A stretch of DNA of 64,000 nt from Panopea generosa (Eukaryota; Mollusca; Bivalvia; Adapedonta; Hiatellidae): contig CM055912.1 in the NCBI GenBank assembly GCA_029582155.1, positions 1,736,001 to 1,800,000 of the forward strand. Reading direction: 5' to 3'. This document shows positions 11,271 to 62,186 of the stretch, one piece after another. A program made the position numbers and the translations under genes. Each line of letters begins with the position of its first letter. Position 1 is the stretch's first letter. A model generated the notes under the pieces. It was not told where the DNA came from. It made no database searches and saw only the letters and a program-made list of their open reading frames with translations.

Positions 11271-11842
11271 GTCCTTGTTACTATTTTGTGAAAGTATATG
11301 CAGTGTGTAATATTTTTACCGATATATTTATCGCTCCATCGATATAGGTATCTGGGAATTTATCGTTATATTGCGATGATATTGATCTTTCTATAGATAT
11401 AGTGTTCGCAGTGTTCAGGTATATAACATTATATCACTATTTCTGTATATTTATAAACGAGTAATTGTACCCATTTGAAGGCTACACTGCAGACTAGATG
11501 AGAATATGTGCAAGACCAATAACTGCAATCTAAATGTAAGAATAAGTTTTTTGCAGTTATGTCCCTTGTTAAATTATAAAAAATAAAACTAATATATTCA
11601 CAAGAGGTAACGCGGTTTCTGGCAAACATGTTTTATACAACTGTTTATTTGATGTAGTAACTGCCAATGCACGTGTTTAATATCTCATCACTCTCAAAGA
11701 AAAAAACTATACAAAAAATTTGAGAATGTGGTTATTGAAATGCTATTAAGAAATAGTTCTTCTAAACAAAGTTGAGTAAAGTATGATAGGAAAACATGCT
11801 AGATCGATGATCTAATAAAAGTGCACCGTATCAATTGTAATA
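11271..11842. other. AT-rich, nothing recognised
   Basis: No supported feature. The minus-strand ORF at 11429-11629 has no coding character. Confidence 0.5.
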
Positions 11843-11945
11843 GTATGTTGGCAGCTCACGCCAGAGGTTGAGGGTCCCTTTCCGAAGCTCGCCCACTGGA
11901 TGTCTCTCAACAACACTCGGTATTGGTTCTACTCGGGAATTGTAA
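11843..11945 (+). mobile_element. Family-B SINE fragment
   Basis: 'ttggcagctcacgccagagg' and 'caacactcggtattggttct' match the family-B head and body at 19588-19745. Confidence 0.55.
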
Positions 11946-19587: not shown

Positions 19588-19745
19588 GTTGGGAGGGACA
19601 GTGTAGTCGATAGGATGTTGGCCTCTCATGTCTGAGGTTGCGAGTTTGATCTCCAGTTCTACCCGACAACACTCAGTACTGGTTTTAGCCACGAGAGCAT
19701 TTCATATATAAGTTCTAAGCTTTCTTCGCAATTGAGCTAAAAGCA
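19588..19745 (+). mobile_element. Family-B tRNA-derived SINE
   Basis: Head 'agtgtagtcgataggatgtt' (A-box region) and 'gaggttgcgagtttgatctc' (B box). Body 'actcagtactggttttagcc' and 'aagctttcttcgcaattgag'. This copy is key: its body matches the sequence joined to the end of the 64-bp array at 44184-44275. Confidence 0.75.
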
Positions 19746-20279
19746 GTTATTTCTAGCCTGTTAAAGTGATTGGGTGATCTTCATTACTTTTCATGTTTTC
19801 AAAGATATTGTACCAACCTTTCATCTCATCTGATTTCTAAGTTCAGTAAACCTTGTAGTGGAGAAAGCCACAACTTTCTGTGTTGCATATGTGCTGCTTG
19901 CAAACCCGTCATCATCAATCATTTTTTTAATTATGTTCTGCAAATCAAAATTATGAAATTGTGGCTGATGATACGGCTGATTGAAGAGCTCTTGCAAGCT
20001 TCTATGGGCAAAAACATTGTAATAAAGTATAATCACTTACATTAAAACTTTTCTTAACACCTTATGTGTAATTCGTATGCAAATTTCTATTTCTGTCTTG
20101 TGAACAAAAATAGAAAATGTACTTTATTTAGAAAAAAAAAGATAGATATATATAAATAATTAATGTATCTAAATGTATTCAAAAGTATTCGCAGTGAATT
20201 ACTTTAAAAATGTCACTATCAAAATAGTGTTATGATTATAAATGATATTGCCGCAGTTTTCTACCATAATATAAACCTC
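19746..20279. other. Nothing supported
   Basis: ORFs overlap on both strands at 19770-20045 without splice context or recognisable protein character. Confidence 0.4.
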
Positions 20280-20540
20280 TGAGTTGGCCTAGTGGTCTAG
20301 AACGTCATGTGTTTGGCATGGTACTGAAGTCTGTCAGCACTAAACTGTTGTTGAAAATGGCAATAATCACCCCAAAATACAATACATTCAGTAAAATATC
20401 ACTTGAATGCAGAAAATGTATACTTCTCTCTTACCATTTGATTGTTTCTTTGAGTATTTAGCGTAATTGTTATGCTATTTAGAGCTAACAGATGATCAAA
20501 GGGTCGTGGGTTTGATCCTCCAACATGGCTATGTGTGAGA
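20280..20540. mobile_element. Composite of SINE pieces
   Basis: Tail-to-head pieces: a tRNA-like head at 20281-20335 ('gttggcctagtggtctagaa'), a reverse family-A 3' end at 20455-20500 ('tatttagcgtaattgttatg'), and a forward B-box-like 'tcgtgggtttgatcctcc' at about 20504. Confidence 0.4.
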
Positions 20541-20845
20541 CGGAGATTATATCCATATATGCTTAGTAGTGTTTCTACCCAGGAATACATCGAGCCTGAT
20601 TTGTCTAAGTTATAATAAGTTGTGTCACAATCAAAGTGAAATAAATACATTTTAAGCAAGAGTTTACAGACCATTAGTTAACTGATCTGCACAACTAACT
20701 GATATTTTCTCCATTTGAAAGGGTACAGGAAATGATTAACTGGGACATGTCTTTTGATGGGACAATTTGTTAAATATGGGACAAGTTGTCTCGAAACTTG
20801 TGACGAGTTTTCTTTGGGACAACTTGTCCATAATTCGTTTGAAAC

Positions 20846-32020: not shown

Positions 32021-32039
32021 CAGTAGTTTATAGTATAGT

Positions 32040-32216
32040 TTATACTAAACATTGATGAAAGTTCAGAGCTTATTTAGACCGCTCTCAAGTCGGCGTCCTG
32101 AGTAGAACCAGTACTGAGTGTTGTTTTATGAGAGGCATCAGGTCAAACTGGGGATCAAACCTACAACCTCTGGTGAAAGCAGCCAACACTCTATCCATTA
32201 CACTATCACCCCCGCT
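32040..32216 (-). mobile_element. Family-B tRNA-derived SINE, reverse
   Basis: Read on the minus strand: 'gatagtgtaatggatagagt' (A box), 'gttggctgctttcacc', 'agaggttgtaggtttgatcc' plus cc (B box), then the body 'caacactcagtactggttct' and 'aagctctgaactttc'. The head is the closest match in the window to the 64-bp array unit. Confidence 0.85.
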
Positions 32217-35941: not shown

Positions 35942-37227
35942 AATCTTGTAAAATATCTACTTGTCCGTAGATGACATCTACTTGTCCATTCAAGACCATT
36001 TACCTTAAAACAAAACAATTGGCAAAAAACTTTTACTTTAGCTTATAAAATTCAATAGATGGAAATTCCCCTTTTCAATGCCATGAATCTAAATGATTTC
36101 AAATAACTTATTTTGGTGGAAACACAACATGAGCAATTTTTGCATACTTCATCTTTCCCTTTTTAAACTGTAACTGAGAATATTACTTGCCCACGGGCAA
36201 GTAAACTCACATGACCATATTTGAAAATGTACACTACAGATAACTCAGCCATCCCTACAAATATATATTGTGTTACAATGAATTGTAAGAACTCCTTCCA
36301 CCAGACAAAATGGCAGCTGTATAGTCAATTTTCACTGTTATCATGTAAAAAAAACTCAAAGTTATATGTTTATTGATTATTAAAAAAATGCTTTTATTTA
36401 TCACCAAAAAAAAAAAATCACCCATACAACAAATTTATAATTAATTGAATAACAAATATGATGGCAACATCAATAATTATATGACACCTACAACATATTT
36501 GTAAAATGTTTCAATGTTTAATATTAATATTAATTGTTGTAAATTCATGTTTTTCCAATTCTAATGTGGTTGGTGTTAACAGTCCTTATTTATAACATTT
36601 TTTTTTCATATTTTACAGGAAAAAATGTCATTACTTTTCCATTAAAAAACAAATAAAGCATTAAAGACACACCATCCCACATCCTCAATTGAAAGATGTT
36701 TTGTATAATCTAAAAACCTTCATTAATATTATTGCTGCAATTGGATGCAGAAATATCACAAAGGACAGGAAACTTGCATCTCTCTATTAAAAGTTGATAA
36801 AATAGCACATGAAAAAATTGATATTTTGTCAAATTAATCACTCAGATTTCACAGGAAATGGATTTCATATACATAAAATGTTTATCTAATCATAAGTATT
36901 TTAACAATTTTAAACATAATTCACTGCTAGCGGTGAAGAGAATTTCATTTTGCGAAAAAAAAGTTACGTTTGTATTTCTGAGATGAAATCAAGATTTGAC
37001 ATGAATACATGACATGAGCATTAATAACATCTCAATGAGTTGCTTTTCTTCTTCTATATAAGTTCTTGATAAAAAATAATCTGTAACCTCCTTAATGCGG
37101 TTTGACAAGTAATTTATCATTTGACAAGTTTTCCACTTGGGACGTTTGGGGATTTCCTAGAATAAAATTTGATATTTATGAAGTTAACTAAAAATCACCT
37201 TGATTCAAAGCATACACTTTCAATTTC
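35942..37227. other. AT-rich intronic sequence
   Basis: No exon, array or mobile element recognised. Confidence 0.5.
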
Positions 37228-38294
37228 TGAAGAGACAAGCATTTGAGAGAACTGCTGAAGAGACAAGCATTTGAGAGAACTGTTGAAGGGACAAGCGTTT
37301 GAGAGAACTGTTGAAGAGACAAGCATTTGAGAGAACTGCTGAAGAGACAAGCATTTGAGAGAACTGTTACAGAGACAAGTGTTTGAGAGAACTGCTGAAG
37401 AGACAAGCATTTGAGAGAACTGTTGAAAAGACAAGCATTTTGAGAGAACTGCTGAAGAGACAAGCATTTGAGAGAACTGCTGAAGAGACAAGCATTTGAG
37501 AGAACTGCTGAAGAGAAAGCGTTTTGAAAGAACTGCTGAAGAGACAAGCGTTTGAGAGAACTGCTGAAGGGACAAGCGTCTGAGAGAACTGCTGAAGGGA
37601 CAAGCATTTGAGAGAACTGTTGAAGAGACAAGCATTTTGAGAGAACTGCTGGAAAGGCAAGCATTTGAGAGAACTGCTGAAGAGACAATTGTTTGAGAGT
37701 ACTGCTGAAGAGACAATTGTTTTAGAGAACTGCTGAAGAGACAGCGTTTGAGAAAACTGCTGAAGAGACAAGCATTTGAGAGAACTGTTGAAGAGACAAG
37801 CGTTTGAGAGAACTGCTGAAGAGACAAGTGTTTGAGAGAACTGCTGAAGAGACAAGCATTTTGAGAAAACTGCTGAAGAGACAAGCATTTGAGAGAACTG
37901 TTGAAGAGACAAGCGTTTTGAGAGAACTGCTGAAGAGACAAGTGTTTGAGAAGACTGCTGAAGAGACAAGCATTTGAGAGAACTGTTGAAGAGACAAGGG
38001 TTTTGAGAGAACTGCTGGAAAGGCAAGCATTTGAGAGAACTGCTGAAGGTCTAAGTGTTTGAGAGAACTGCTGAAGAGACAATCGTTTGAGAGAACTGCT
38101 GAAGAGACAGCGTTTGAGAAAACTGCTGAAGAGACAAGCATTTGAGAGAACTGCTGAAAAGAAAAGCATTTGAGAGAACTGCTTAAGAGACCAGCATTGG
38201 AGAGAACTGCTGAAGAGAAAGCGTTTGAGAGAACTGCTGAAAAGACAAGCGTTTGACAGAACTGCTGAAGAGACAAGCATTTGGGAGAACTGCT
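37228..38294. repeat. 28-bp minisatellite, about 38 units
   Basis: Unit 'agagacaagcatttgagaga' plus actgctga, with 27- and 29-bp variants. The minus-strand ORF of 361 codons (37195-38280) is a reading of the array with an 84-bp (28-codon) period. Confidence 0.95.
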
Positions 38295-38440
38295 ATTAAG
38301 ATTATATTTTTTGATTAATTAAACCTCTGTTTAAAGATAACTTTGAAGGCTCCAACTGTGTTAATAGTTGCTCTATATTGATACCTAATCTTATATTCAG
38401 ATTCCATTAAAGCTTGTTCTTTAAATGATAGTTTACATAC

Positions 38441-38577
38441 TTTTCAGCATTCTCCTTCGATCAAGAGTTCATTAAGTTCCTTCATCCTGGTTGTGGCAAT
38501 CTCACTGATTTGTTCTACCATTCTGTTATGTGAGACAGGATGGAGTTTTTCAACGGAGAGCAACCTAGCAGCACAAA
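38441..38577 (-). pseudogene. Probable exon of the same minus-strand gene, frame disrupted at its end
   Basis: Acceptor 'gaacattcag' (exon starts at 38577); donor GAAAA then gtatgt (exon ends at 38441). One frame is open almost throughout: CAARLLSVEKLHPVSHNRMV, then EQISEIATTRMKELNELLIE, then TGA four codons on. The last bases in another frame give ENAEK. It has a clear coding character: helical, with spaced leucines. Dynein tail is suggested by position and style, not by a signature I can name. Confidence 0.45.
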
Positions 38578-38816
38578 CTGAATGTTCAGGATTGCCTCTT
38601 GTGTTTGTACATTGTTGACAATTTCAGTGTATCACATAATTTCATTAATCACATATACCAGAGCAACAGATAAGTTAATACTGTATACCTTCATCATTAT
38701 AATTTCAAATGGGTTACATCCGTCAAATTGAACAGGGTAATATAAAGCTCCTGATATTTAGTTTTTCTAGTTTGTACAATATACTTGGTAATCAACCCAT
38801 TCAAAGTCTGTGTAAG

Positions 38817-41800
38817 TGAGACAGAAATGCAGTTAATAGTGTTTGCTGCTAACACTAGAGGTTGCAGGTTTGATCCCTAGCGAGGCAGTAATGTAGTTTA
38901 TAGTGTTTGCCCCTAACACTAGAGGTTGTAGGTTTGATCCCCAGTGAGGCAGTAATGTAGTTTATAGTGTTTGCCGCTAACACTAGAGGTTGTAGGTGGT
39001 TTGATCCCCAGCGAGGCAGTAATGCAGTTTATAGTGTTTGCTGCTAACACTAGAGGTTGTGGGTTTGATCCCCAGTGAGGCAGAAATGCAGTTTATAGTG
39101 TTTGCTGCTAACACTAGAGGTTGCAGGTTTGATCCCCAGTGAGGCAGTAATGCAGTTTAAAGTGTTTGCTGCTAACACTAGAGGTTGTAGGTTTGATCCC
39201 CAGTGAGGCAGTAATGCAGTTTATAGTGTTTGCTGCTAACACTAGAGGTTGTAGGTTTGATCCCCAGCGAGGCAGTAATGCAGTTTATAGTGTTTGCTGC
39301 TAACACTAGAGGTTGTAGGTTTGATCCCCAGTGAGGCAGTAATGCAGTTTATAGTGTTTGCTGCGAACACTAGAGGTTGCAGGTGTGATCTCAATTGAGG
39401 CAGTAATGCAGTTTATAGTCTTTGCCGCTAACACAAGTTGTTGCAGGTTTGATCCCCAGCAAGGCAGTAATGTTGTTTATAGTGTTTACTGCTAACACTA
39501 GAGGTGGTAGGTTTGATCCCTAGTGAGGCAGTAATGCAGTTTATAGTGTTTGCCACTAACACTAGAGGTTGTAGGTTTGATCCCCAGTGAAGCAGTAATG
39601 CAGTTTAAAGTGTTTGCTGAGGTTACTAGAGGTTGTAGGCTTGATCACCAGTGAGGCAGTAATGCAGTTGATAGTGTTTGCCGCTAACTTAAGAGGTTGT
39701 AGGTTTGATCCCCAGTGAGGCAGTAATGTAGTTTATAGTGTTTGCTGCTAACACTAGAGGTTGTAGGTTTGATCCCCAGCGAGGCAGTAATGCAGTTTAT
39801 AGTGTTTGCTGCTAACTTTAGAGGTTGTAGGTTTGATCCCCAGCGAGGCAGTAATGCAGTTTATAGTGTTTGCTGCTAACACTAGAGGTTGTAGATTTGG
39901 TCCCCAGTAAGGCAGTTATGCAGTTTATAATGTTTGCTGCTAACACTAGAGGTTGTAGGTTTGATCCCCAGCGAGGCAGTAATGCAGTTTAAAGTGTTTG
40001 CTGCTAACACTAGAGGTTGTAGGTTTGATCCCCAGCGAGGCAGTAATGCAGTTTATAGTGTTTGCTGCTAACACTAGAGGTTGTAGGTGTAATCCCCAGT
40101 GAGGCAGTAATGTAGTATATAGTGTTTGCTGCTAACACTAGAAGTTGTAGGTGTGATCCCCAGTGAGGCAGTAATGTAGTTTATAGTGTTTGCTGCTAAC
40201 ACTAGAGGTTGTAGGTGTGATCCCCAGTGAGGCAGTAATGCAGTTTATAGTGTTTGCTGCTAACACTAAAGGTTGTAGGTGTGATCCCCAGTGAGGCAGT
40301 CATGTAGTTTATAGTGTTTGCTGCTAACACTAGAGGTTGTAGGTGTGATCCCCAGCGAGGCAGTTATGTAGTTTATAGTGTTTGCTGCTTAGAGGTTGTA
40401 GGTTTGATCCTCAGCGAGGCAGTAATGTAGTTTATAGTGTTTGCCCCTAACACTAGAGGTTGTAGGTTTGATCCCCAGTGAGGCAGTAATGTAGTTTATA
40501 GTGTTTGCCGCTAACACTAGAGGTTGTAGGTGGTTTGATCCCCAGCGAGGCAGTAATGTAGTTTATAGTGTTGGCCGCTAACACTAGAGAATGTAGTTTT
40601 GATCCCCATCGAGGTAGTAATGTAGTTTATAGTGTTTGCAGCTAACACTAAAGGTTGTAGATTTGGTCCCCAGTAAGGCAGTTATGCAGTTTATAATGTT
40701 TGCTGCTAACACTAGAGGTTGTATGTTTGATTCTCAGTGAGGCAGTAATGCAGTTTATAGTGTTTGCTGCTAACACTAGAGGTTGTAGGTTTGATCCCCA
40801 GCGAGGCAGTAATGCAGTTTATAGTGTTTGCTGCCAACACTAGAGGTTGTAAGTGTGATCCCCAGTGAGGCAGTAATGTAGTTTATAGTGTTTGCTGCTA
40901 ACACTAGAGGTTGTAGGTGTGATCCCCAGTGAGGCAGAAATGCAGTTTATAGTGTTTGCTGCTAACACTAAAGGTTGTAAGTGTGATCCCCAGTGAGGCA
41001 GTAATGTAGTATATAGTGTTTGCTGCTAACACTAGAGGTTGTAAGTGTGATCCCCAGTGAGGCAGTAATGCAGTTTATAGTGTTTGTTCTTAGAGGTTGT
41101 AGGTTTGATCCCCAGAGAGGCAGTAATGTAGTTTATAGTGTTTGCTGCCAACACAAGAGGTTGTAGGTTTGATCCCCAGTGAGGCAGTAATGCAGTTTAA
41201 AGTGTTTGCTGCTAACACTAGAGGTTGTAGGTTTGATCCCCAGTGAGGCAGTAATGTAGTTTATAGTGTTTGCCGCTAACACTAGAGAATGTAGGTTTGT
41301 TCCCCAGCAAGGCAGTAATGTAGTTTATAGTGTTTGCCGCTAACACTAGAGGTTGTCAATTTGATCCCCAGCGAGGCAGTAATGTAGTTTACAGTGTTTG
41401 CCACTAACACACGAGGTTGTAGGTTTGATCCTCAGTGAGGCAGTAATATAGTTTATAGTGTTTTCTGCTAACACTAGAGGTTGTAGGTTTGATCTGCAAT
41501 GAGGCAGTACTGTAGTTTAGTGTTTGCTGCTAACACTAGAGGTTGTAGGTTTGATCCCCAGTGAGGCAGTAATGTAGTTTATAGTGTTTGCCGCTTACAC
41601 TAGAGGTTGTAGGTTTGATCCCCAGCGAGGCAGTTATGTAGTTTATAGTGTTTGCCGCTAACACTAGAGGTTGTAGGTTTGATCCCCAGCAAGGCAGTAA
41701 TGATATTTATAGTGTTTGCCGCTAACACTAGAGGTTGAAGGATTGATCCCCAGTGAGGCAGTAATGTAGTTTATAGTGTTTGCTGCTAACACTTGAGGTT

Positions 41801-44183
41801 GTAAGTTTGATCCCCAGTGAGGTAGTAATGTAGTTTATAGTGTTTGCTGCTAACACTAGAGGTTGTGGGTTTGATCCCCAGTGAGGCAGTTATGTAGTTT
41901 ATAGTGTTTGCCGCTAACACTAAAGGTTGTAGGTTTGATACCCAGCGAGGCCATAATGTAGTTTATACTGTTTGCCGTTTACACTAGAGGTTGTAGGTTT
42001 GATCCCCAGCGAGGCAGTAATGTAGTTTTAAGTGTTTGCCACTAACACTAGAGGTTGTAGGTTTGATCCCCTGCGAGGCAGTAAGGTAGTTTATAGAGTT
42101 TGCAGCTAACACTAGAGGTTGTAAGTTTGATCTTCAGCAAGGCAGTTATGTAGTTTATAGTGTTGCCGCTAACATTAAAGGTTGTAGGTTTGATCACCAG
42201 GAAGGCAGTAAGGTAGTTTATAGCGTTTGCAGCTAACACTAGAGGTTGTAAGTTTGATCTTCAGCAAGGCAGTCATGTATTTTATAGTGTTTGCCCCTAA
42301 CACTAGAGGTTGTAGGTTTGATCCCCAGTGAGGCAGTAATGCAGTTTATAGTGTTTGTTGCTAACACTAGAGGTTGTAAGTTTGATCCCCAGTGAGGCAG
42401 TAATGTTGTTTATACTGTTTACTGCTAACACTAGACGTGGTAGGTTTGATCCCCAGTGAGGCAGTAATGCAGTTTATAGTGTTTGCCGCTAACACTAGAG
42501 GTTGTAGGTTTGATCCCCAGCGAAGCAGTAATGCAGTTTAAAGTGTTTGCTGAGGTTACTAGAGGTTGTAGGCTTGATCCCCAGTGAGGCAGTAATGCAG
42601 TTGATAGTGTTTGCTGCTAACTTTAGAGGTTGTAGGTTTGATCCCCAGTGAGGCAGTAATGCAGTTGATAGTGTTTGCTGCTAACTTTAGAGGTTGTAAG
42701 TTTGATCCCCAGTGAGGCAGTTATGTAGTTTATAGTGTTTGCTGCTAACACTAGAGGTTGTAGGTTTGATCACCAGCAAGGCAGTAATGATGTTTATGGT
42801 GTTTGCCGCTAACACTAGAGGTTGAAGGATTGATCCCCAGTGAGGCAGTAATGTAGTTTAAAGTGTTTGCAGCTAACACTAGAGGTTGTAGATTTGATCC
42901 CCAGTGAGGCAGTAATGTAGTTTATAGTGTTTGCTGCTAACACTAGAGGTTGTGGGTTTGATCCCAAGTGAGGCACTAATGTAGTTTATAGTGTTTGCTG
43001 CTAACACTAGAGGTTGTAGGTTTGATACCCAGCGAGGCAGTAATGTAGTTTATAGTGTTTGCCGTTTACACTAGAGGTTGTAGGTTTGATCCCCAGTGAG
43101 GCAGTAATGTAGTTTATAGTGTTTGCTGTTTACACTAGACGTTGTAGGTTTGATACCCAGCGAGGCAGTAATGTAGTTTATAGTGTTTGCCGTTTACACT
43201 AGAGGTTGTAGGTTTGATCCCCAGCAAGGCAGTAATGTAGTTTATAGTGTTTGCTGCTAACACTAGAGGTTGTGGGTTTGATCCCAAGTGAGGCACTAAT
43301 GTAGTTTATAGTGTTTGCTGCTAACACTAGAGGTTGTAGGTTTGATACCCAGCGAGGCAGTAATGTAGTTTATAGTGTTTGCCGTTTACACTAGAGGTTG
43401 TAGGTTTGATCCCCAGCGAGGCAGTAATGTAGTTTATAGTGTTTGCCGTTTACACTAGAGGTTGTAGGTTTGATCCCCAGTGAGGCAGTAATGTAGTTTA
43501 TAGTGTTTGCTGTTTACACTAGAGGTTGTAGGTTTGATACCCAGCAAGGCAGTAATGTAGTTTATAGTGTTTGCCGTTTACACTAGAGGTTGTAGGTTTG
43601 ATCCCCAGTGAGGCAGTAATGTAGTTTATAGTGTTTGCTGTTTACGCTAGAGGTTGTATGTTTGATCCCCAGCGAGGCAGTAATGTAGTTTTAAGTGTTT
43701 GTCGCTAACACTACAGGTTGTAGGTTTGATCCCCTGCAAGGCAGTAAGGTAGTTTATAGCGTTTGCAGCTAACACTAGAGGTTGTAAGTTTGATCTTCAG
43801 CAAGGCAGTAAGGTAGTTTATAGCGTTTGCAGCTAACATTTGAGGTTGTAAGTTTGATCTTCAGCAAGGCAGTAAGGTAGTTTATAGCATTTGCAGCTAA
43901 CACTAGAGGTTGTAAGTTTGATCTTCAGCAAGGCAGTTATGTAGTTTATAGTATTGCCACTAACATTAAAGGTTGTAGGTTTGATCCCCAGCGAGGCAGT
44001 AATGCAGTTTATAGTGTTTGCTGCTAACACTAAAGGTTGTAGGTTTGATCCCCAGGAAGGCAGTTATGCAGTTTATAGTGTTTGCTGCTAACACTAAAGG
44101 TTGTAGGTTTGATCCCCAGGAAGGCAGTTATGCAGTTTATAGTGTTTGCTGCTAACACTATACGTTGTAGGTTTGATTCCCAG
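38817..44183. repeat. 64-bp minisatellite, about 84 units, made from a SINE's tRNA-like head
   Basis: Unit 'gaggcagtaatgcagtttat', 'agtgtttgctgctaacacta', 'gaggttgtaggtttgatccc', cagc. The second half is the B-box region of family-B SINEs: 'agaggttgtaggtttgatcc' plus ccag is identical to the SINE at 32040-32216. A-box-region similarity is weaker. A few units differ by small indels (for example near 40389, 41092 and 41515). Variant types (gctgctaac, gccgtttac, gcagctaac) form local blocks, a sign of repeated local duplication. Confidence 0.95.
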
Positions 44184-44275
44184 CTTGACCAGTACCAGTT
44201 TTATCCAGGAAGAGGACTTGTTTAAGCTCTGAGCTTTCTTCACAATCAAGCTTAAATGGATGAGTATAAACTAAA
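44184..44275 (+). mobile_element. Family-B SINE body still attached to the array
   Basis: Directly after the last array unit comes 'ccagtaccagttttatccag' and 'gagctttcttcacaatcaag'. These match 'tcagtactggttttagcc' and 'aagctttcttcgcaattgag' of the SINE at 19588-19745. The array's last unit is thus the head of this SINE. Confidence 0.8.
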
Positions 44276-44589
44276 CTCCCAGACTGTGCTCCGTTTTGTT
44301 TCCTTTTGAATATACTATTACTTCTATTACAAAGAATGACAAATAAACTGTGATAATTTCAGCTATTTTATTTACATGGCAAAATATGCAGATAACTAAA
44401 GTTTTTTTTTTACAGGTGCTTTCTCATCCCACAAGAAAAATATGAAAATATTTACTTACTTTTGTGTCCTCCAGCATTACAAGTCAAGTCAAATCAATTG
44501 TAACAAACATAGCCATTTTAAAATTTTATTCCATGTAACAATTTCATCTATTTTTTTTGTCATTTAAGCATTTTAATTCTGGAGTAGAA

Positions 44590-44832
44590 CTATGTGTAAA
44601 ACCCATGAGCGAGCTGCTTTGTTCTATGTGTAAAACCCATGAGCGAGCAACTTTGTTCTATGTGTAAAACCCATGAGAGAGCCACTTTGTTCTATGTGTA
44701 AAACCCATGAGCGAGCCACTTTGTTCTATGTGTAAAACCCATGAGCAAGCAACTTTGTTCTATGTGTAAAACCCATGAGTGAGCCACTTTGTTCTATGTG
44801 TAAAACCCATGTGCCAGTCACTTTGTTTTATG
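44590..44832. repeat. 34-bp minisatellite, about 7 units
   Basis: Unit 'ctatgtgtaaaacccatgag' plus cgagccactttgtt. Confidence 0.95.
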
Positions 44833-44963
44833 TTGTTTAGTAATTATTTTACCAGGAAAAACATATTACAAGTACGAATTGTATTAGTTCAAAGAACTTG
44901 TTATGTATTCTAAGAAAATTAACAAGTTCAAATAATCAATATTACCATATACATGTCACTCAC

Positions 44964-47641: not shown

Positions 47642-47921
47642 AATTGATTTATTATCCACTCCCCAAGCTCCTGTGGACATACCACAAGTTAGATACCTCT
47701 TCTTACACCACCTTTATGTCTTCCTTTGTCGCTGCACCCACCTTCAACTTGTTCATCCACCTTAAATCATACAAGTTATCTTAAAATAGGTTATTTTTAT
47801 CCTAGTAAAGTTGTCAGTATTTATCAATATGTCAGAAAACAGTTGTAAGTTGTCAAAGTACCATGAAATTGTATCTTCTAGGCCAGGTTGGTTCAGGTAG
47901 TTTTGAACAATAAACACTTTG

Positions 47922-50900
47922 TGTAGCACATGAGCCTGTGGTACAGCATTGGACCATGGATCGGAGGGACGAGAGGGGTTAGAATACCTGCCATATGTAG
48001 CACATCAGTGTTTTTTTTCACCATTTTGGGAAGATGACCCATACCCTTGGGATTGGGAATTTTAGCGGCATTTTCATTAACATTGGGAATTTTTTTTGCA
48101 TTAAATATATTTATATATTTATAAAAACCGTACACTTGCTTATCGGGCCATTTAATTAAATAATCAATGTCATACTAAATTCAGAATGGGGAAAACTTTC
48201 TTTATTTTATCAAGGAAGTATGACAAGTTTCAATTTACATTTTTGAAGCTTTCAATTGGGAATTTTTACCATTCAATTGGGAAAACAAGATATTATTTGC
48301 CATTGGGAATATGACCCAATAACGGCTATAAAAATGGCCGAAAAAAAACACTGCACATGAGCCTGTGGTACAGCATTGGACCATGGAGGGGCAGGGGTTA
48401 GATTACCTGCCATGTGAAGCACATTAGGCTGTGGTACAGCATTGGACCATGGATCGGAGGGACAGGGGTTAGATCACCTGCCATGTTTAGCACATGAACC
48501 TGTGGTACAGCATTGGACCATGGAATGGAGGGACAGGGGTTAGATCACCTGCCATGTGTAGCACATGAGCCTGTGGTATAGCATTGGACCATGAATCAAT
48601 CTGCCATGATCACCTGCTATGTGTAGTTCATAAGCCTGTGGTACAGTATTGGACCATGGATCAGAAGGGCAGGGGTTAAATCACCTGCCATGTGTAACAC
48701 ATGAGCCTGTGGTAAAACATTGGACCATGGATCAGGGGGACAAGGGTTAGATCACCTGCCATGTGTAGCACATGACCCTGTGGTACAGCACTGGACCATG
48801 GATCAGAGGGGCAGGGGTAAGATCACCTGCCATGTGTAGCACATTAGCCTGTGGTACAGCATTGGACCATGGATCAGAGGGACATGGGTTATATCACCTG
48901 CCATGTGTAGCACATGAGCCTGTGGTACAGCATTGGACCATGGATCAGAGGGACACCTGCCATGTGTAGCACATGAGCCTGCGGTACAGCATTGGACCAT
49001 GGATCAGAGGAACAGGGGTTAGATCACCTGCCATGTGTAGCAAATGAGCCTGTGGTACAGCATTGGACCATAGATCAGAGGGAGAGGGGTTAGATCACCT
49101 GCCATGTGTAGCACATGAGCCTGTGGTACAGCATTGGACCATGGATCAGAGGGATAGAGATTAGATCACCTGCCATGTGTAGCATATGAGCCTGTGGTAC
49201 AGCATTGGATCATGGATCCTAGGGACATGGCTTAGATCACCTGCTATGTGTAGCACATGAGCCTGTGTTACAGCATTGGACCATGGATCAGACGGAGAGG
49301 TGTTAGATCACCTGCCATGTGTAACACATGACCCTGTAGTACAGCATTGGACCATGGATCAGAGGGACATGGGTAAGATCAACTGCTATGTGTAGCACAT
49401 AAGCCTGTGGTACAGCATTGGACCATGGATCAGAAGGGCAGGGGTTAGATCACCTGCCATGTGTAACACATGAGCCTGTGGTAAAACATTGGACCATGGA
49501 TCAGAGGGACAAGGGTTAGATCACCTGCCATGTGTAGCACATGACCCTGTGGTACAGCACTGGACCATGGATCAGAGGGGCAGGGGTAAGATCACCTGCC
49601 ATGTGTAGCACATGAGCCTGTGTTACAGCATTGGACCATGGATCAGAGGGACATGGGTAAGATCAACTGCTATGTGTAGCACACAAGCCTGTGGTACAGC
49701 ATTGGACCATGGATCAGAAGGGCAGGGGTTAGATCACCTGCCATGTGTAACACATGAGCCTGTGGTAAAACATTGGACCATGGATCAGAGGGACAAGGGT
49801 TAGATCACCTGCCATGTGTAGCACATGACCCTGTGGTACAGCACTGGACCATGGATCAGATGGGCAGGGGTTAGATCACCTGCCATGTGTAACACATGAG
49901 CCTGTGGTAAAACATTGGACCATGGATCAGAGGGACAAGGGTTAGATCACCTGCCATGTGTAGCACATGACCCTGTGGTACAGCACTGGACCATGGATCA
50001 GAGGGGCAGGGGTAAGATCACCTGCCATGTGTAGCACATGAGCCTGTGTTACAGCATTGGACCATGGATCAGAGGGACATGGGTAAGATCAACTGCTATG
50101 TGTAGCACACAAGCCTGTGGTACAGCATTGGACCATGGATCAGAAGGGCAGGGGTTAGATCACCTGCCATGTGTAACACATGAGCCTGTGGTAAAACATT
50201 GGACCATGGATCAGAGGGACAAGGGTTAGATCACCTGCCATGTGTAGCACATGACCCTGTGGTACAGCACTGGACCATGGATCAGAAGGGCAGGGGTTAG
50301 ATCACCTGCCATGTGTAACACATGAGCCTGTGGTACAACATTGGACCATGGATCAGAGGGACACCTGCCATGTGTAGCACATGAGCCTGGGGTACAGCAT
50401 TGGACCATGGATCAGAGGAACAGGGGTTAGATCACCTGCCATGTGTAGCAAATGAGCCTGTGGTACAGCATTGGACCATGGATCAGAGGGAGAGGGGTTA
50501 GATCACCTGCCATGTGTAGCACATGACCCTGTAGTACAGCATTGGACCATGGATCAGAGGGACATGGGTAAGATCAACTGCTATGTGTAGCACATGAGCC
50601 TGTGGTACAGCATTGGACCATGGATCAGAGGGACATGGGTAAGATCAACTGCTATGTGTAGCACATGAGCCTGTGGTACAGCATTGGACCATGGATCAGA
50701 GGGACATGGGTTAGATCACCTGCCATGAGTAGCACATGACCCTGTAGTACAGCATTGGACCATGGATCAGAGGGACATGGGTAAGATCAACTGCTATGTG
50801 TAGCATATGAGCCTGTGTTACAGCATTGGACCATGGATCAGAGGGAGAGGGGTTAGATCACCTGCCATGTGTAGCACATGACCCTGTAGTACAGCATTGG

Positions 50901-53900
50901 ACCATGGATCAGAGGGACATGGGTAAGATCAACTGCTATGTGTAGCACATGAGCCTGTGGTACAGCATTGGACCATGGATCAGAGGGACAAGGGTTAGAT
51001 CACCTGCTATGTGTAGCACATGAGCCTGTGGTACAGCATTGGACCATGGATCAGAAGGGCAGGGGTTAGATCACCTGCCATGTGTAACACATGAGCCTGT
51101 GGTAAAACATTGGACCATGGATCAGAGGGACAAGGGTTAGATCACCTGCCATGTGTAGCACATGACCCTGTGGTACAGCACTGGACCATGGATCAGAGGG
51201 GCAGGGGTTAGATCACCTGCAATGTGTAGCACATTAGCCTGTGGTACAGCATTGGACCATGGATCAGAAAGACAGGGGTTAGATCACCTGCCATGTGTAG
51301 CACATGAGCCTGTGGTACAGCATTGGAGCATGAATCAGAGGGACAGTGGTTAGATTACCTGCCATGTGTAGCACATGAGCCTGTGGTACAGCACTGGACC
51401 ATAGATCAGAGGGACAGGGGTTAGATTACCTGCCATGTGTAGCACATGAGCCTGTGGTACAGCACTGGACCATGGATCAGAGGGACAGTGGTTAGATTAC
51501 CTGCCATGTGTAGCACATGAGCCTGTGGTACAGCATTGGACCATGGATCAGAGGGACAGGGGTTAGATCACCTGCCATGTGTAGCACAAGAGCCTGTGGT
51601 ACAGCATTGGAGCATGAATCAGAGGGACAGTGGTTAGATTACTTGCTATGTGTAGCACATGAGCCTGTGGTACAGCACTGGACCATGGATCAGAGGGACA
51701 GTGGTTAGATTACCTGCCATGTGTAGCACATGAGCCTGTGGTACAGCACTGGACCATCGATCAGAGGGACAGTGGTTAGATCACCTGCCATGTGTAGCAC
51801 ATGAGCCTGTGGTACAGCACTGGACCATGGATCGGAGGGACAGGGGTTAGATGACCTGCCATGTGTAGCACATCAGCTTGTGGTACAGAATTGGACCATG
51901 GATCAGAGGGACAGGGGTTAGATCACCTGCCATGTGTACCACATTAGCCTGTGGTTCAGCATTGGACCATGGATCAGAGGGGCAGGGGTTAGATCACCTG
52001 CCATGTGTAGCACATGAGCCTTTGGTACAGCATTGGACTATGAATAGGAGGGACAAGGGTTAGATCACCTGCCATGTGTAGCACATGAGCCTGTGGTACA
52101 GCACTGGACCATGGATCGGAGGGACAGGGGTTAGATCACCTGCCATGTGTAGCACATGAGCCTGTGCTACAGCATTGGACCATGGATCAGAGGGACAGGG
52201 GTTAGATCACCTGCCATGTGTAGCACATTAGCCTGTGGTACAGCATTGGACCATGGATCGGAGGGGCAGGGGTTAGATCACCTGCCATGTGTAACACATT
52301 AGCCTGTGGTACAGCACTGGACCATGGATCGGAGGGACAGGGGTTAGATCACCTGCCATGTGTAGCACATGAGCCTGTGGTACAGCACTGGACCATGGAT
52401 CAGAGGGACAGGGGTTAGATCACCTGCCATGTGTAGCACATTAGCCTGTGGTACAGCATTGGACCATGGATCGGAGGGACATGGGTTAGATGACCTGCCA
52501 TGTGTAGCACATAGCCTGTGGTACAGCATTGGACCATGGATCGGAGGGAGAGGGGTTAGATCACCTGCCATGAGTAGCACATTAGCCTGTGGTACAGCAT
52601 TGGACCATGGATCGGAGGGGCAGGGTTTAGATCACCTGCCATGTGTAGCACATAAGCCTGTGGTACAGCATTGGAGCATGAATCAGAGGGACAGTGGTTA
52701 GATTACCTGCCATGTGTAGCACATGAGCCTGTGGTACAGCACTGGACCATGGATCAGAGGGACAGGGGTTAGATCACCTGCCATGTGTAGCACATTAGCC
52801 TGTGGTACAGCATTGGACCATGGATCGGAGGGACAGGGGTTAGATCACCTGCCATGTGTAGCACATGAGCCTGTGGTACAGCATTGGACCATGGATCGGA
52901 GGGACAGGGGTTAGATCACCTGCCATGTGTAGCACATGAGCCTGTGGTACAGCATTGGACCATGGATCAGAGGGACAGCGATTAAATCACCTGCCATGTG
53001 TAGCACATGAGCCTGTGGTACAGCATTGGATCATGGATTGGAGGGACAGGGGTTAGATCACCTGCAATGTATAGCACATGAGCCTGTGGTACAGCATTGG
53101 ACCATGGAGGGGCAGGGGTTAGATTACCTGCCATGTGAAGCACATTAGGCTGTGGTACAGCATTGGACCATGGATCGGAGGGACAGGGGTTAGATCACCT
53201 GCCATGTTTAGCACATGAGCCTGTGGTACAGCATTGGACCATGGAATGGAGGGACAGGGGTTAGATCACCTGCCATGTGTAGCACATGAGCCTGTGGTAT
53301 AGCATTGGACCATGAATCAATCTGCCATGATCACCTGCTATGTGTAGTTCATAAGCCTGTGGTACAGCATTAGACCATGGATCAGAAGGGCAGGGGTTAG
53401 ATCACCTGCCATGTGTAACACATGAGCCTGTGGTAAAACATTGGACCATGGATCAGGGGGACAAGGGTTAGATCACCTGCCATGTGTAGCACATGAGCCT
53501 GTGGTAGAGCATTGGACCATGGATCAGAGGGCAGGGGTAAGATCACCTGCCATGTGTAGCACATAAGCCTGTGGTACAGCATTGGACCATGGATCGGAGG
53601 GACAGGGGTTAGATCACCTGCCATGTTTAGGACATGAGCCTGTGGTACAGCATTGGACCATGGAATGGAGGGACAGGGGTTAGATCACCTGCCATGTGTA
53701 GCACATGAGCCTGTGGTACAGCATTGGACCATCAATCAATCTGCCATGTGTAACACATGAGCCTGTGGTACAGCATTAGACCATGAATCAGAGGGACAGC
53801 GGTTAGATCACCTGCCATGTGTAGCACATGAGCCTGTGGTACAGCATTGGACCATGAATCAATCTGCGATGTGTAGCACATGAGCCTGTGGTACAGCATT

Positions 53901-56900
53901 GGACCATGAATCAATCTGCCATGTGTAGCACATGAGCCTGTGGTACAGCATTGGACCATCAATCAGATGGACAGGGATTAGATCACCTGCCATGTGTAGC
54001 ACATGAGCCTGTGGTACAGCATTGACCATGAATCAGAGAGGCAGGTGTTAGATCACCTGCCATGTGTTGCACATGAGCCTGTGGTACAGCATTGGACCAT
54101 GGATCAGAGGGAAAGGGGTTAGATTACCTGCCATGTGTAGCACATGTGCCTGTGGTACAGCACTGGACCATGGATCGGAGGGACAGGGGTTAGATCAACT
54201 GCCATGTGTAGCACATAAGCCTGTGTTACAGCATTGGACCATGGATCAGAGGGACAGGGGTTAGATCACCTGCCATGTGTAGCACATGAGCCTGTGGTAC
54301 AGCATTGGACCATGGATCGGAGGGAGAGGGGTTAGATTACCTGCCATGTGTAGCACATGAGCCTGTGGTACAGCATTGACCATGAATCAGAGAGGCAGGT
54401 GTTAGATCACCTGCCATGTGTTGCACATGAGCCTGTGGTACAGCATTGGACCATGGATCAGAGGGAAAGGGGTTAGATTACCTGCCATGTGTAGCACATG
54501 TGCCTGTGGTACAGCACTGGACCATGGATCGGAGGGACAGGGGTTAGATCAACTGCCATGTGTAGCACATCAGCCTGTGTTACAGCATTGGACCATGGAT
54601 CAGAGGGACAGGGGTTAGATCAACTGCCATGTGTAGCACATAAGCCTGTGTTACAGCATTGGACCATGGATCAGAGGGACAGGGGTTAGATCACCTGCCA
54701 TGTGTAGCACATGTGCCTGTGGTACAGCACTGGACCATGGATCGGAGGGACAGGGGTTAGATCAACTGCCATGTGTAGCACATAAGCCTGTGTTACAGCA
54801 TTGGACCATGGATCAGAGGGACAGGGGTTAGATCACCTGCCATGTGTAGCACATGAGCCTGTGGTACAGCATTGGACCATGGATCAGAGGGAAAGGGGTT
54901 AGATTACCTGCCATGTGTAGCACATGTGCCTGTGGTACAGCACTGGACCATGGATCGGAGGGACAGGGGTTAGATCAACTGCCATGTGTAGCACATAAGC
55001 CTGTGTTACAGCATTGGACCATGGATCAGAGGGACATGGGTTAGATCACCTGCCATGTGTAGCACATGAGCCTGTGGTACAGCACTGGACCATGGATCAG
55101 AGGGACATGGGTTAGATCACCTGCCATGTGTAGCACATGAGCCTGTGGTACAGCACTGGACCATGGATCGGAGGGACAGGGGTTAGATCACCTGCCATGT
55201 GTAGCACATGAGCCTGTGTTACAGCATTGGACCATGGATCAGAGGGACATGGGTTAGATCACCTGCCATGTTTAGCACATGAGCCTGTGGTACAGCATTG
55301 GACCATGGATCAGAGGGACAGGGGTTAGATCACCTGCCATGTGTAGCACATGAGCCTGTGGTACAGCATTGGACCATGGATCAGAGGGACAGGGGTTAGA
55401 TCACCTGCCATGTGTAGCACATGAACCTGTGGTACAGCATTGGACCATGGATCAGAGGGACATGGGTTAGATTACCTGCCATGTGTAGCACATTAGTCTG
55501 TGGTACAGCATTGGACCATGGATCGGAGGGAGAGGGGTTAAATCACCTGCCATGTGTAGCACATGAGCCTGTGGTACAGCATTGGACCATGGAATGGAAG
55601 GACAGGGGTTAGATCACCTACCATGTGTAGCACATGAGCCTGTGGTACAGCATTGGACCATGGAATGGAGGGACAGGGGTTAGATAACCTGGCATGTGAA
55701 GCACATGAGCCTGTGGTAAAGCATTGGACCATGGATCGGAGGGACAGGGGTTAGATCACCTGCAATGTGTAGCACATATGCCTGTGGTACAGCATTGGAC
55801 CATGCAGGGGCAGGGGTTAGATTACCTGCCATGTGAAGCACATTAGGCTGTGGTACAGCATTGGACCATGGATCGGAGGGACAGGGGTTAGATCACCTGC
55901 CATGTTTAGCACATGAACCTGTGGTACAGCATTGGACCATGGAATGGAGGGACAGGGGTTAGATCACCTGCCATGTGTAGCACATGAGCCTGTGGTACAG
56001 CATTGGACCATGAGTCAATCTGCCATGATCACCTGCTATGTGTAGTTCATAAGCCTGTTGTACAGCATTGGACCATGGATCAGAAGGGCAGGGGTTAAAT
56101 CACCTGCCATGTGTAACACATGAGCCTGTGGTACAGCATTGGACCATGGATCGGAGGGACAGTGGTTAGATCACCTGCCATGTGTAGCACATGAGCCTGT
56201 GGTACAGCATTGGACCATGGATCAGAGGGACATGGGTTATATCACCTGCCATGTGTAGCACATGAGCCTGTGGTAAAGCATTGGACCATGGATCAGAGGG
56301 ACACCTGCTATGTGTAGCACATGAGCCTGCGGTACAGCATTGGAACATGGATCAGAGGAACAGGGGTTAGATCACCTGCCATGTGTAGCAAATGAGCCTG
56401 TGGTACAGCATTGGACCATAGATCAGAGGGAAAGGGGTTAGATCACCTGCCATGTGTAGCACATGAGCCTGTGGTACATCATTGGACCATAGATCGGAGG
56501 GATAGAGGTTAGATCACCTGCCATGTGTAGCATATGAGCCTGTGGTACAGCATTGGACCATGGATCCTAGGGACATGGGTTAGATCACCTGCTATGTGTA
56601 GCACATGAGCCTGTGTTACAGCAATGGACCATGGATCAGAGGGAGAGGTGTTAGATCACCTGCCATGAGTAGCACATGACCCTGTAGTACAGCATTGGAC
56701 CATGGATCAGAGGGACATGGGTAAGATCAACTGCTATGTGTAGCACATGAGCCTGTGGTACAGCATTGGACCATGGATCAGAGGGACATGGGTAAGATCA
56801 ACTGCTATGTGTAGCACATAAGCCTGTGGTACAGCATTGGACCATGGATCAGAAGGGCACGGGTTAGATCACCTGCCATGTGTAACACATGAGCCTGTGG

Positions 56901-59900
56901 TAAAACATTAGACCATGGATCAGAGGGACAAGGGTTAGATCACCTGCCATGTGTAGCACATGAGCCTGTGGTACAGCACTGGACCATGGATCAGAGGGGC
57001 AGTGGTTAGATCACCTGCAATGTGTAGCACATTAGCCTGTGGTACAGCATTGGAACATGGATCAGAGGGACAGGGGTTAGATCACCTGCCATGTGTAGCA
57101 CATGAGCCTGTGGTACAGCATTGGAGCATGAATCAGAAGGGCCAGTGGTTAGATTACCTGCCATGTGTAGCACATGAGCCTGTGGTACAGCACTGGACCA
57201 TAGATCAGTGGGACAGGGGTTAGATTACCTGCCATGTGTAGCACATGAGCCTGTGGTACAGCACTGGACCATAGATCGGAGGGACAGTGGTTAGATTACC
57301 TCCCATGTGTAGCACATGAGCCTGTGGTACAGCACTGGACCATGGATCAGAGGGACAGTGGTTAGATTACCTGCCATGTGTAGCACATGAGCCTGTGGTA
57401 CAGCACTGGACCATGGATCAGAGGGATAGTGGTTACATTACCTACCATGTGTAGCACATGAGCCTGTGGTACAGCACTGGACCATGGATCAGAGGGACAG
57501 GGGTTAGATCACCTGCCATGTGTAGCACATGAGCCTGTGGTACAGCACTGGACCATGGATCGGAGGGACAGGGGTTAGATCACCTGCCATGTGTAGCACA
57601 TGAGCCTGTGGTACAGCATTGGACAATGGATCAGAGGGACAGGGGTTAGATCACCTGCCATGTGTAGCACATTATCCTGTGGTACAGCATTGGACCATGG
57701 ATCGGAGGGGCAGGGGTTAGATCACCTGCCATGTGTAGCACATGAGCCTGTGGTACAGCATTGGACCATGGATCGGAGGGACAGGGGTTAGATCCCCTGC
57801 CATGTGTAGCACATGAGCCTGTGGTACAGCATTGGACTATGAATCGGAGGGACAGGGGTTAGATCACCTGCCATGTGTAGCACATGAGCCTGTGGTACAG
57901 CATTGGACTATGAATCGGAGGGAAAGTGGTTAGATTACCTGCCATGTGTAGCACATGAGCCTGTGGTACAGCACTGGACCATGGATCAGAGGGACAGGGG
58001 TTAGATCACCTGCCATGTGTAGCACATGAGCCTGTGGTACAGCACTGGACCATGGATCGGAGGGACAGGGGTTAGATCACCTGCCATGTGTAGCACATGA
58101 GCCTGTGGTACAGCATTGTACCATGGATCAGAGGGACAGGGGTTAGATCACCTGCCATGTGTAGCACATTAGCCTGTGGTACAGCATTGGACCTTGGATC
58201 GGAGGGACAGGGGTTAGATCACCTGCCATGTGTAGCACATGAGCCTGTGGTACAGCATTGGACCATGGATCAGAGGGACAGGGGTAAGATCACCTGCCAT
58301 GTGTAGCACATTAGCCTGTGGTACAGCATTGGACCATGGATCGGAGGGGCAGGGGTTAGATCACCTGCCATGTGTAGCACATGAGCCTGTGGTACAGCAT
58401 TGGGCCATGGATCAGAGGGACAGGGGTTAGATCACCTGCTATGTGTAGCACATGAACCTGTGGTACAGCATTGGACTATGAATCGGAGGGACAAGGGTTA
58501 GATCACCTGCCATGTGTAGCACATGAGCCTGTGGTACAGCACTGGACCATGGATCGGAGGGACAGGGGTTAGATCACCTGCCATGTGTAGCACATGAGCC
58601 TGTGGTACAGCATTGGACCATGGATCAGAGGGACAGGGGTTAGATCACCTGCCATGTGTAGCACATTAGCCTGTGGTACAGCATTGGACCATGGATCGGA
58701 GGGGCAGGGGTTAGATCACCTGCCATGTGTAGAACATGAGCCTGTGGTACAGCACTGGACCATGAATCGGAGGGACAGGGGTTAGATCACCTGCCATGTG
58801 TAACACATTAGCCTGTGGTACAGCACTGGACCATGGATCGGAGGGACAGGGGTTAGATCACCTGCCATGTGTAGCACATGAGCCTGTGGTACAGCACTGG
58901 ACCATGAATCGGAGGGACAGGGGTTAGATCACCTGCCATTTGTAGCACATTAGCCTGTGGTACAGCATTGGAGCATGGATCGGAGGGACATGGGTTAGAT
59001 CACCTGCCATGTGTAGCACATTAGCCTGTGGTACAGCATTGGACCATGGATCGGAGGGAGAGGGGTTAGATCACCTGCCATGTGTAGCACATTAGCCTGT
59101 GGTACAGCATTGGACCATGGATCGGAGGGGCAGGGGTTAGATCACCTGCCATGTATAGCACATGCGCCTGTGGTACAGCATTGGAGCATGAATCAGAGGG
59201 ACAGTGGTTAGATTACCTGCCATGTGTAGCACATGAGCCTGTGGTAAAGCACTGGACCATAGATCAGAGGGACAGGGGTTAGATCACCTGCCATGTGTAG
59301 CACATTAGCCTGTGGTACAGCATTGGACCATGGATCGGAGGGACAGGTGTTAGATCACCTGCCATGTGTAGCACATGAGCCTGTGGTACAGCATTGGACC
59401 ATGGATCGGAGGGACAGGGGTTAGATTACCTGCAATGTGTAGCACATGAGCCTGTGGTACAGCATTGGACATGGATGGGCAGGGGTTAGATTACCTGCCA
59501 TGTGAAGCATATTAGGCTGTGGTACAGCATTGGACCATGGATCGGAGGGACAGGGGTTAGATCACCTGCCATGTTTAGCACATGAGCCTGTGGTACAGCA
59601 TTGGACCATGGAATGGAGGGACAGGGGTTAGATCACCTGCCATGTGTAGCACATGAGCCTGTGGTACAGCATTGGACCATGAATCAATCTGCCATGATCA
59701 CCTGCTATGTGTAGTTCATAAGCCTGTGGTACAGCATTGGCCCATGGATCAGAAGGGCAGGGGTTAGATCACCTGCCATGTGTAACACATGAGCCTGTTG
59801 TAAAACATTGGACCATGGATCAGTGGGTCAAGGGTTAGATCACCTGCCATGTGTAGCACATGAGCCTGTGGTACAGCACTGGACCATGGATCAGAGGGGC

Positions 59901-61950
59901 AGGGGTAAGATCACCTGCCATGTGTAGCACATTAGCCTGTGGTACAGCATTGGACCATGGATCGGAGGGACAGGGGTTAGATCACCTGCCATGTTTAGGA
60001 CATGAGCCTGTGGTACAACATTGGACCATGGAATGGAGGGACAGGGGTTAGATCACCTGCCATGTGTAGCACATGAGCCTGTGTTACAGCATTGGACCAT
60101 GGATCAGAGGGACAGCGGTTAGATCACCTGCCATGTGTAGCACATGAGCCTGTGGTACAGCATTGGACCATGAATCAATCTGCCATGTGTAGCACATGAG
60201 CCTGTGGTACAGCATTGGACCATGAATCAGAGGGACAGCGGTTAGATCACCTGCCATGTGTAGCACATGAGCCTGTGGTACAGCATTGGACCATGAATCA
60301 ATCTGCGATGTGTAGCACATGAGCCTGTGGTACAGCATTGGACCATGAATCAATCTGCCATGTGTAGCACATGAGCCTGTGGTACAGCATTGGACCATGA
60401 ATCAGATGGACAGGGGTTAGATCACCTGCCATGTGTAGCACATGAGCCTGTGGTACAGCATTGACCATGAATCAGAGAGGCAGGGGTTAGATCACCTACC
60501 ATGTGTAGCACATGAGTATGTGGTACAGCATTGGACCATGGATCAGAGGGAAAGGGGTTAGATTACCTGCCATGTGTAGCACATGAGCCTGTGGTACAGC
60601 ACTGGACCATGGATCGGAGGGACAGGGGTTAGATCAACTGCCATGTGTAGCACATGAGCCTGTGTTACAGCATTGGACCATGGATCAGAGGGACAGGGGT
60701 TAGATCACCTGCCATGTGTAGCACATGAGCCTGTGGTACAGCATTGGACCATGGATCGGAGGGACAGGGATTAGATTACCTGCCATGTGTAGCACATGAG
60801 CCTGTGGTACAGCATTGGACCATGGATCGGAGGGACAGGGATTAGATTACCTGCCATGTGTAGCACATGAGCCTGTGGTACAGCACTGGACCATGGATTG
60901 GAGGGAGAGGGGTTAGATCACCTGCCATGTGTAGCATATGAGCCTGTGGTACAGCATTGGACCATGGATCAGAGGGAGAGGGGTTAGATTACCTGCCATG
61001 TGTAGCACATGAGCCTGTTGTACAGCATTGGACCATGGATCAGAGGGAGAGGGGTTAGATTACCTGCCATGTGTAGCATATGAGCCTGTGGTACAGCATT
61101 GGACCATGGATCAGAGGGAGAGGGGTTAGATCACCTGCCATGTGTAGGATATGAGCCTGTGGTACAGCACTGGACCATGGATCGGAGGGAGAGGGGTTAG
61201 ATCACCTGTCATGTGTAGCATATGAGCCTGTGGTACAGCACTGGACCATGGATCAGAGGGACATGGGTTAGATCACCTGCCATGTGTAGCACATGAGCCT
61301 GTGTTACAGCATTGGACCATGGATCAGAGGGACATGGGTTAGATCACCTGCCATGTTTAGCACATGAGCCTGTGGTACAGCATTGGAACATGGATCAGAG
61401 GGACAGGGGTTAGATTACTTGCCATGTGTAGCACATGAGCCTGTGGTACAGCATTGGACCATGGATCAGTGCCTGTGGTACAGCATTGGACCATGGATCA
61501 GAGGGGCAGGGGTTAGATCACCTGCCATGTGTAGCACATGAGCCTGTGGTACAGCATTGGACCATGAATCAGAGGGACAGGGGTTAGATCACCTGCCATG
61601 TGTAGCACATGAGACTGTGGTACATCATTGGACCATGGATCAGAGGGGCAGGGGTTAGATCACCTGCCATGTGTAGCACATGAGCCTGTAGTACAGCATT
61701 GGACCATGAATCATAGGGACAGGGGTTAGATCACCTGCCATGTGTAGCACATGAGCCTGTTGTACAGCATTGGACCATGGATCAGAGGGACATGGGTTAG
61801 ATCACCTGCCATCTTTAGCACATGAGCCATGTTTAGCAGCATTGGACCATGGATCAGAGGGGCAGGGGTTAGATTACCTGCCATGTGTAGCACATGAGCC
61901 TGTTGTACAGCATTGAACTATGGATCAGAGGGACATGGGTTAGATCACCT
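47922..61950. repeat. 71-bp minisatellite/satellite, about 193 units, tRNA-like
   Basis: Unit 'tgtagcacatgagcctgtgg', 'tacagcattggaccatggat', 'cagagggacaggggttagat', cacctgccatg. A tRNA-like layout is visible: 'ggtacagcat' like a D-arm end, an anticodon-arm-sized block, then 'caggggttagatcacctg' like a T-arm with a degenerate B box. Small variants (gatcgg/gatcag, cattgg/cactgg, tta/tga) mix throughout. Some units are 70 bp or lack a segment. All ORFs in this interval are readings of the array. Confidence 0.95.
48006..48353. mobile_element. TIR element (MITE) inserted in the 71-bp array
   Basis: Ends CAGTGTTTTTTTTC and GAAAAAAAACACTG are exact inverted repeats; inner similarity is 'ccattttgggaagatgaccc' against 'atgacccaataac'. 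The array is interrupted with cacat repeated at 48001-48005 and 48354-48358, a 5-6 bp target duplication. CAGTG ends recall hAT elements, but an 8-bp duplication is not clear. Confidence 0.85.
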
Positions 61951-62186
61951 GATTCGTATTTAAATTAGATTACTTTTTAGGTCAGACAATTTTGTAAGTT
62001 AGATTCTTATTTGTTTTGATTTGTCATCAGTCTCAATGAAATTGGATTTCAAATAATTCAGCGCGCTATCCCTCCGACAGCTTTTGTTGAAATGAATATT
62101 TATTATATGGAAAAGGAAAAATATATGTTTATCAATAAAAATAAATGCATTTACACACAAACATATGTTAAGGCTAGTTGTCAAAA
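61951..62186. other. Unique flank of the array
   Basis: AT-rich, no supported feature. Confidence 0.5.

Follow-up and report, generated by a model that had tools for sequence, protein, structure and literature searches.

The stretch analyzed here (the window) comprised 64,000 nucleotides of contig CM055912.1 of the bivalve Panopea generosa (assembly GCA_029582155.1, positions 1,736,001 to 1,800,000 of the forward strand). It contained a tandem array of units of about 64 bp, each corresponding to the head of a short interspersed element (SINE), and the last unit of the array ran directly into a SINE body. Dispersed copies of the same SINE family were found elsewhere in the window. The array, the SINE attached to it and the dispersed copies were located as follows:

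38818..44184, forward strand: tandem array, 84 units of ~64 bp, each a SINE head (Tandem Repeats Finder, TRF; unit cutting; head homology)
42906..43545, forward strand: block of about five units duplicated recently within the array, with 190 bp of exact identity at a lag of 320 bp
44121..44184, forward strand: last head unit, joined directly to the SINE body and carrying array-specific states (unit cutting; column comparison)
44185..44277, forward strand: SINE body and tail adjoining the array, core CAGTACCAGTTTTATCCAGGA, tail GTATAAACTAAACT (BLAST; shuffle-tested alignment)
19588..19757, forward strand: dispersed SINE copy, head and body (BLAST; profile; shuffle-tested alignment)
32026..32216, minus strand: dispersed SINE copy, head and body, with A- and B-box-like motifs 44 nt apart (BLAST; profile; shuffle-tested alignment)
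11839..11940, forward strand: diverged SINE copy, start of the head missing (match to the 32026..32216 copy; profile E = 1.5e-11)
20482..20657, forward strand: diverged probable SINE copy, part of head and body (profile match 20502-20644, E = 0.0011)

TRF placed the array at 38815-44183 with a period of 64, 84.0 copies and 89% matches. Cutting at unit starts gave 84 units arranged head-to-tail, the first starting at 38818, in agreement with the roughly 84 head copies of the original prediction. Start-to-start lengths (n = 83) were 64 bp in 76 units, 67 bp in two, 63 bp in two, and 62, 59 and 58 bp once each; unit 84 was given a fixed 64-bp cut, hence its end at 44184. Mean divergence, gaps excluded, was 0.068 from the consensus and 0.114 between units. 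Each unit spanned from near the SINE 5′ end to just beyond the B-box-like motif GGTTTGATCCC. The 5′ edge of the array, i.e., the first unit, lay near the SINE head start, and the unit 3′ end fell right after the B-box-like motif, at the transition from SINE head to body; the unit was therefore taken as the head module. Upstream of the array, no match to the SINE queries or to the SINE profile was found at 38401-38814.

The unit consensus aligned to the heads of the two best-preserved dispersed copies with z = 14.0 (minus-strand copy at 32026..32216) and z = 8.0 (copy at 19588), and in neither case were any of 1000 dinucleotide shuffles as good. The 64-bp unit is thus the head of the SINEs termed family B, as originally proposed. 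Taken alone, the 5′ half of the unit resembled the SINE heads only modestly; for each head, 2 of 1000 shuffles scored as well. The sequence agaggttgtaggtttgatcc, reported as identical in the SINE at 32040-32216, was present there in reverse complement, this SINE being on the minus strand. Beyond the last unit, the attached body (44184-44281) matched the body at 19660-19760 with z = 9.6 and the body of the minus-strand copy with z = 7.7 (0/1000 shuffles as good in both comparisons). A BLAST search of the whole window returned 74% identity over 70 bp between the attached body and 19674-19742 (E = 2.4e-6). Homology to the SINE bodies extended from 44190 to about 44277, and the attached body was without about 25 nt found between head and core in the minus-strand copy. 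The last unit passed into the body contiguously, with no break and in register. The claim of an unbroken run into a body matching the SINE at 19588 accordingly held, and a non-homologous body, which the prediction had named as fatal to it, was excluded.

Further copies were sought with a profile built from the array-joined SINE and the sequences of the minus-strand copy and the copy at 19588, run on the window. The copy at 20502 was assigned to the family on its body part. Two further profile matches on the minus strand, 28608-28655 and 33437-33488, had E-values similar to or better than that copy and covered the head only; in both elements, the sequence following the head did not align to the attached body. 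The core CAGTACTGGTTYTA was recognisable in five copies with at most three mismatches. The family was thus represented by dispersed copies sharing head and body (at 19588 and on the minus strand at 32216; diverged at 11839 and 20482).

One of the head-only matches fell within an apparently intact SINE on the minus strand (28300-28680) with a tRNA-like head, a (CAA)n tail and the flanking repeat AATGTTTCAT. Its head (28605-28668) gave a weak Rfam tRNA match of 24.5 bits, below the gathering score. Presumably this SINE resembles the V-SINE type of molluscs.

In several respects the array has the form of a SINE-derived satellite. It holds 84 units against a minimum of four tandem units, and the unit is part of a SINE and shorter than the whole element. 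At one end a longer terminal unit (44121-44277) comprising head and body reaches the SINE terminus, with a tail-like end common to the minus-strand copy. Neighbouring units were more alike than units overall: the lag-1 distance was 0.098 against an overall mean of 0.114, and none of 5000 permutations was as low. Three exact repeats of at least 110 bp were found in the array (190, 146 and 112 bp at lags of 320, 1534 and 384 bp). The likeness of neighbours and the exact repeats are both as expected if blocks were duplicated by slippage or unequal exchange.

With high confidence, we regard the array as the locally expanded head of a single inserted SINE, formed by tandem duplication and, later, unequal exchange. 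Head copies made in place beside one SINE, as originally suggested, are the simplest account of the unit and body homology. One copy of a tRNA-related SINE family would have inserted at the array site, and its head, starting near the element's first bases and ending just beyond the B-box-like motif, would have been duplicated in tandem beside its own body. The array would then have expanded to 84 units via replication slippage or unequal exchange, with some steps duplicating blocks of several units. The SINE body would have remained at the 3′ edge while the units lost their tRNA-like form. That the SINE came first, that duplication took place in situ and that exchange drove growth are what we infer from these data.

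The direction from SINE to array was judged from tRNA-likeness. Run at 80% of its threshold, ARAGORN called four of the five SINE-head stretches tRNA-like, including the heads of the minus-strand copy and the copy at 19588, and found no such structure in the array consensus or in any of 84 array windows. As controls, 13/300 and 14/300 shuffles of the stretches with these two heads matched, as did 6/300 random 100-mers from the window. The head of the minus-strand copy had A- and B-box-like motifs at tRNA spacing (44 nt), with 6 of 300 shuffles as good. An array of tRNA genes was rejected: none of the 84 windows matched at the relaxed ARAGORN threshold, and no Rfam tRNA match fell in the array.

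Several results weigh against expansion of an inserted SINE head. The box-likeness of the head at 19588 was not above chance (256/300 shuffles as good), and that of the unit consensus was not significant (21/300). Default ARAGORN called no tRNA gene in the window, and Rfam gave no tRNA match in the head of the minus-strand copy. Ten columns separated the SINE heads from the array, i.e., both SINE heads agreed and the array consensus differed; at all ten, both the first and the last unit carried the array state. In closeness to the two SINE heads, the last unit ranked 78th and 84th of 84, and the first unit was 77th for either head. The best candidate for a target-site duplication spanning array and body, AGTCTGTG/AGACTGTG, was not distinguishable from chance, as 956 of 2000 random flank pairs were as good. 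Around the dispersed copies at 19588 and on the minus strand at 32216, the best flank matches were 5 and 3 bases, none of them convincing.

Contrary to the original prediction, then, the intact junction does not make the direction of events readable: it gives no direction by itself because the last unit is in the array state and is not the most SINE-like. Direction rests on the outgroup evidence that the SINE heads are the more tRNA-like, and because of the shuffle controls, the boxes at 19588 and the null results of default ARAGORN and Rfam, both the term tRNA-like and the direction are put forward with moderate strength.

A multi-head SINE subfamily is an unlikely though serious alternative to expansion of a single inserted head. 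Several heads would have been present on the inserted element, added by template jumping of the reverse transcriptase at the RNA 5′ end, with local expansion later. The unit borders, one close to the SINE 5′ end and the other where head meets body, are what a 5′-end jump predicts, and dimeric and multimeric SINEs are on record in the available parts of one survey (PMC10702118). Against this, no further multi-head copy was found in the window, and duplication mediated by short repeats would give the same boundary equally. A direct repeat shared by the starts of head and body was rejected as the cause of the unit borders (not significant over 2000 shuffles). Including the shared CCCAG end, 141/2000 shuffles were as good for the unit, 1671/2000 for the first unit and 979/2000 for the last unit; without this end, 433/2000 were as good for the unit and 1517/2000 for the first unit. 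An AGT triplet stood in the 5′ flank before the array, and AGT also occurred at the head end. This could be the microhomology behind the first duplication, but a triplet is too short to count as evidence.

The reverse order, in which the array came first and the heads of the SINE family descend from its units, is very improbable. It would account for a terminal unit in the array state and for the columns separating array from SINE heads, since at eight of the ten no unit carried the SINE state and at each of the other two a single unit did. Opposed to it are the relaxed ARAGORN matches, found in the heads at 32216 (minus strand) and 19588 and in none of the 84 array windows, and the box-like motifs at tRNA spacing in the former. 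In addition, the third copy, at 11839, agreed with the SINE heads at both of the separating positions that were compared by eye. Finally, adjacency of an array and a SINE is to be expected in a window with many unrelated minisatellites and 38.8% of bases in tandem stretches (24,815 of 64,000, 16 stretches summed), but a SINE landing by coincidence beside an unrelated array of 64-bp units is refuted, since the unit is itself homologous to the head of this SINE family (z = 14.0 and 8.0). The last unit is also in register with the body, and an assembly artefact at the join is very improbable.

Local expansion of an inserted SINE head has known parallels, and the original remark that this case was not known finds no support in the literature: the available parts of PMC10702118 describe SINE-derived satellites that have a SINE terminus attached, and those of PMC11121367 a molluscan SINE satellite. 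According to the former (Vassetzky et al., 2023), squamate SINE-derived satellites are built of units of about 70-290 nt, each a portion of a tRNA-related SINE; a locus has from a few up to hundreds of them, and there are local subvariants. Most have one end at which a longer terminal unit continues to the SINE terminus. The present array is like these in its tandem units made of part of a SINE and in its longer terminal unit reaching the SINE terminus. It differs in that, in the portions available, the squamate satellites derive from other SINE families and occupy thousands of loci in most snakes, whereas one locus was found within the window here. The snake unit of 67 nt covers box B plus some of the body; the unit here is the whole head. 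In a minor gecko variant described there the unit matches the tRNA portion of its SINE, as here, but averages 151 nt.

Among molluscs, PcH-sat of the limpet Patella caerulea (Petraccioli et al., 2024; PMC11121367) is also a satellite from a SINE (Nin-SINE). As described in the available sections, its 179-bp unit contains 118 bp of SINE sequence, which come mainly from the 3′ part and lack boxes A and B, in contrast to the 64-bp head unit here; it makes up about 10% of the genome and is mainly pericentromeric, as against one locus in the window. Amphibian tandem families (Cynops PolIII/TAN, Xenopus OAX, Rana/polIII and Hydromantes Hy/polIII) include a tRNA-related portion, questioned for Hydromantes, and have units of about 200-360 nt where the size is stated. 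Their link to SINEs is judged inconclusive in the parts of PMC10702118 at hand, whereas here the SINE body is attached. Further SINE cases are listed in a review on repeats that arose from transposable elements (PMC9659126, in part), and bivalve elements are treated in PMC10294476 and PMC5139131 (likewise in part).

No description of the array or of its SINE family turned up in the searches of open-licence literature, in which repeat sequences were not compared. Exact patterns gave no matches in IMG/VR (three patterns) or in GTDB contigs (one pattern), which is uninformative for an animal repeat. Overall, the array is of modest novelty: a further case of a SINE-derived satellite whose architecture is already known, and no new class. 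It is a clear single-locus case in which array and seeding retroposon are still joined and the unit is the head module, and it adds to the idea that SINEs seed satellites.

The array is most likely a neutral, non-coding, locally amplified minisatellite without a host role. No open frame of at least 90 codons overlapped it, and no Rfam family reached its gathering score anywhere in the window. One array stretch gave weak microRNA-like Rfam matches far under gathering scores. Predicted RNA folds of the 64-bp unit, of the 71-bp unit of a neighbouring array and of one SINE head were no better than those of shuffles (27 to 173 of 200 as good). A Pfam scan of 10 of the 37 listed open frames gave none above cut-off.

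About 3.7 kb downstream lay a second array, the largest in the window, together with an inserted element:

47918..61952, forward strand: 71-bp array, about 14 kb, 195 unit anchors from 48353 on
48006..48353: 348-bp terminal-inverted-repeat element with CAGTG.../...CACTG ends (CAGTGTTTTTTTTC/GAAAAAAAACACTG) and CACAT flanking both sides

The 348-bp element interrupts the 71-bp array near its start, within the first copies of the unit. Intervals between anchors were exactly 71 bp in 167 of 194 measured, and six 52-bp deletion variants were present. In a box test covering eight array consensuses and two SINE heads, the 71-bp consensus had A- and B-box-like motifs 35 nt apart, as against 44 nt in the SINE head (0/300 shuffles as good). 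ARAGORN matched the 71-bp unit only at 70% of its threshold, at which 49/200 shuffles also matched, and a 231-base stretch of the array gave no Rfam match. Kinship of the 71-bp unit with the head of the minus-strand copy or with the 64-bp unit was rejected (763/1000 and 768/1000 shuffles as good). No SINE parent was found for it in the window; the 71-bp array is possibly a second tRNA-like array, a lead and not a second case. It is doubtful that two separate tRNA-like heads in one 64-kb stretch each became satellites; if they did, promoter-bearing SINE heads would be preferred minisatellite seeds in this lineage, in a region that is 38.8% tandem.

A dense minisatellite cluster occupied 22155-38294 and 44590-44833, with units of 21, 24, 28, 32, 34, 36 and 44 bp among others. 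As to an origin of the other minisatellites from transposable elements, ten consensuses and the 71-bp one had no dispersed match in the window beyond array edges, apart from a weak 17-bp one. Between the two large arrays, a 100-aa open frame (47339-47641) that might be an exon matched the Pfam family MTBP_C weakly, below the cut-off (E = 0.007). At 5506-7891, several direct repeats, each about 180-370 bp long and 70-84% identical to one another, look like an old duplicated segment. Lastly, a second and more abundant dispersed repeat family was present at seven positions: 1979-2213, 8832-9651, 13065-13247, 16219-16411, 20839-20976, 21299-21435 and 62197-62365. This family is probably another SINE, with a tRNA-like B box near 9424.

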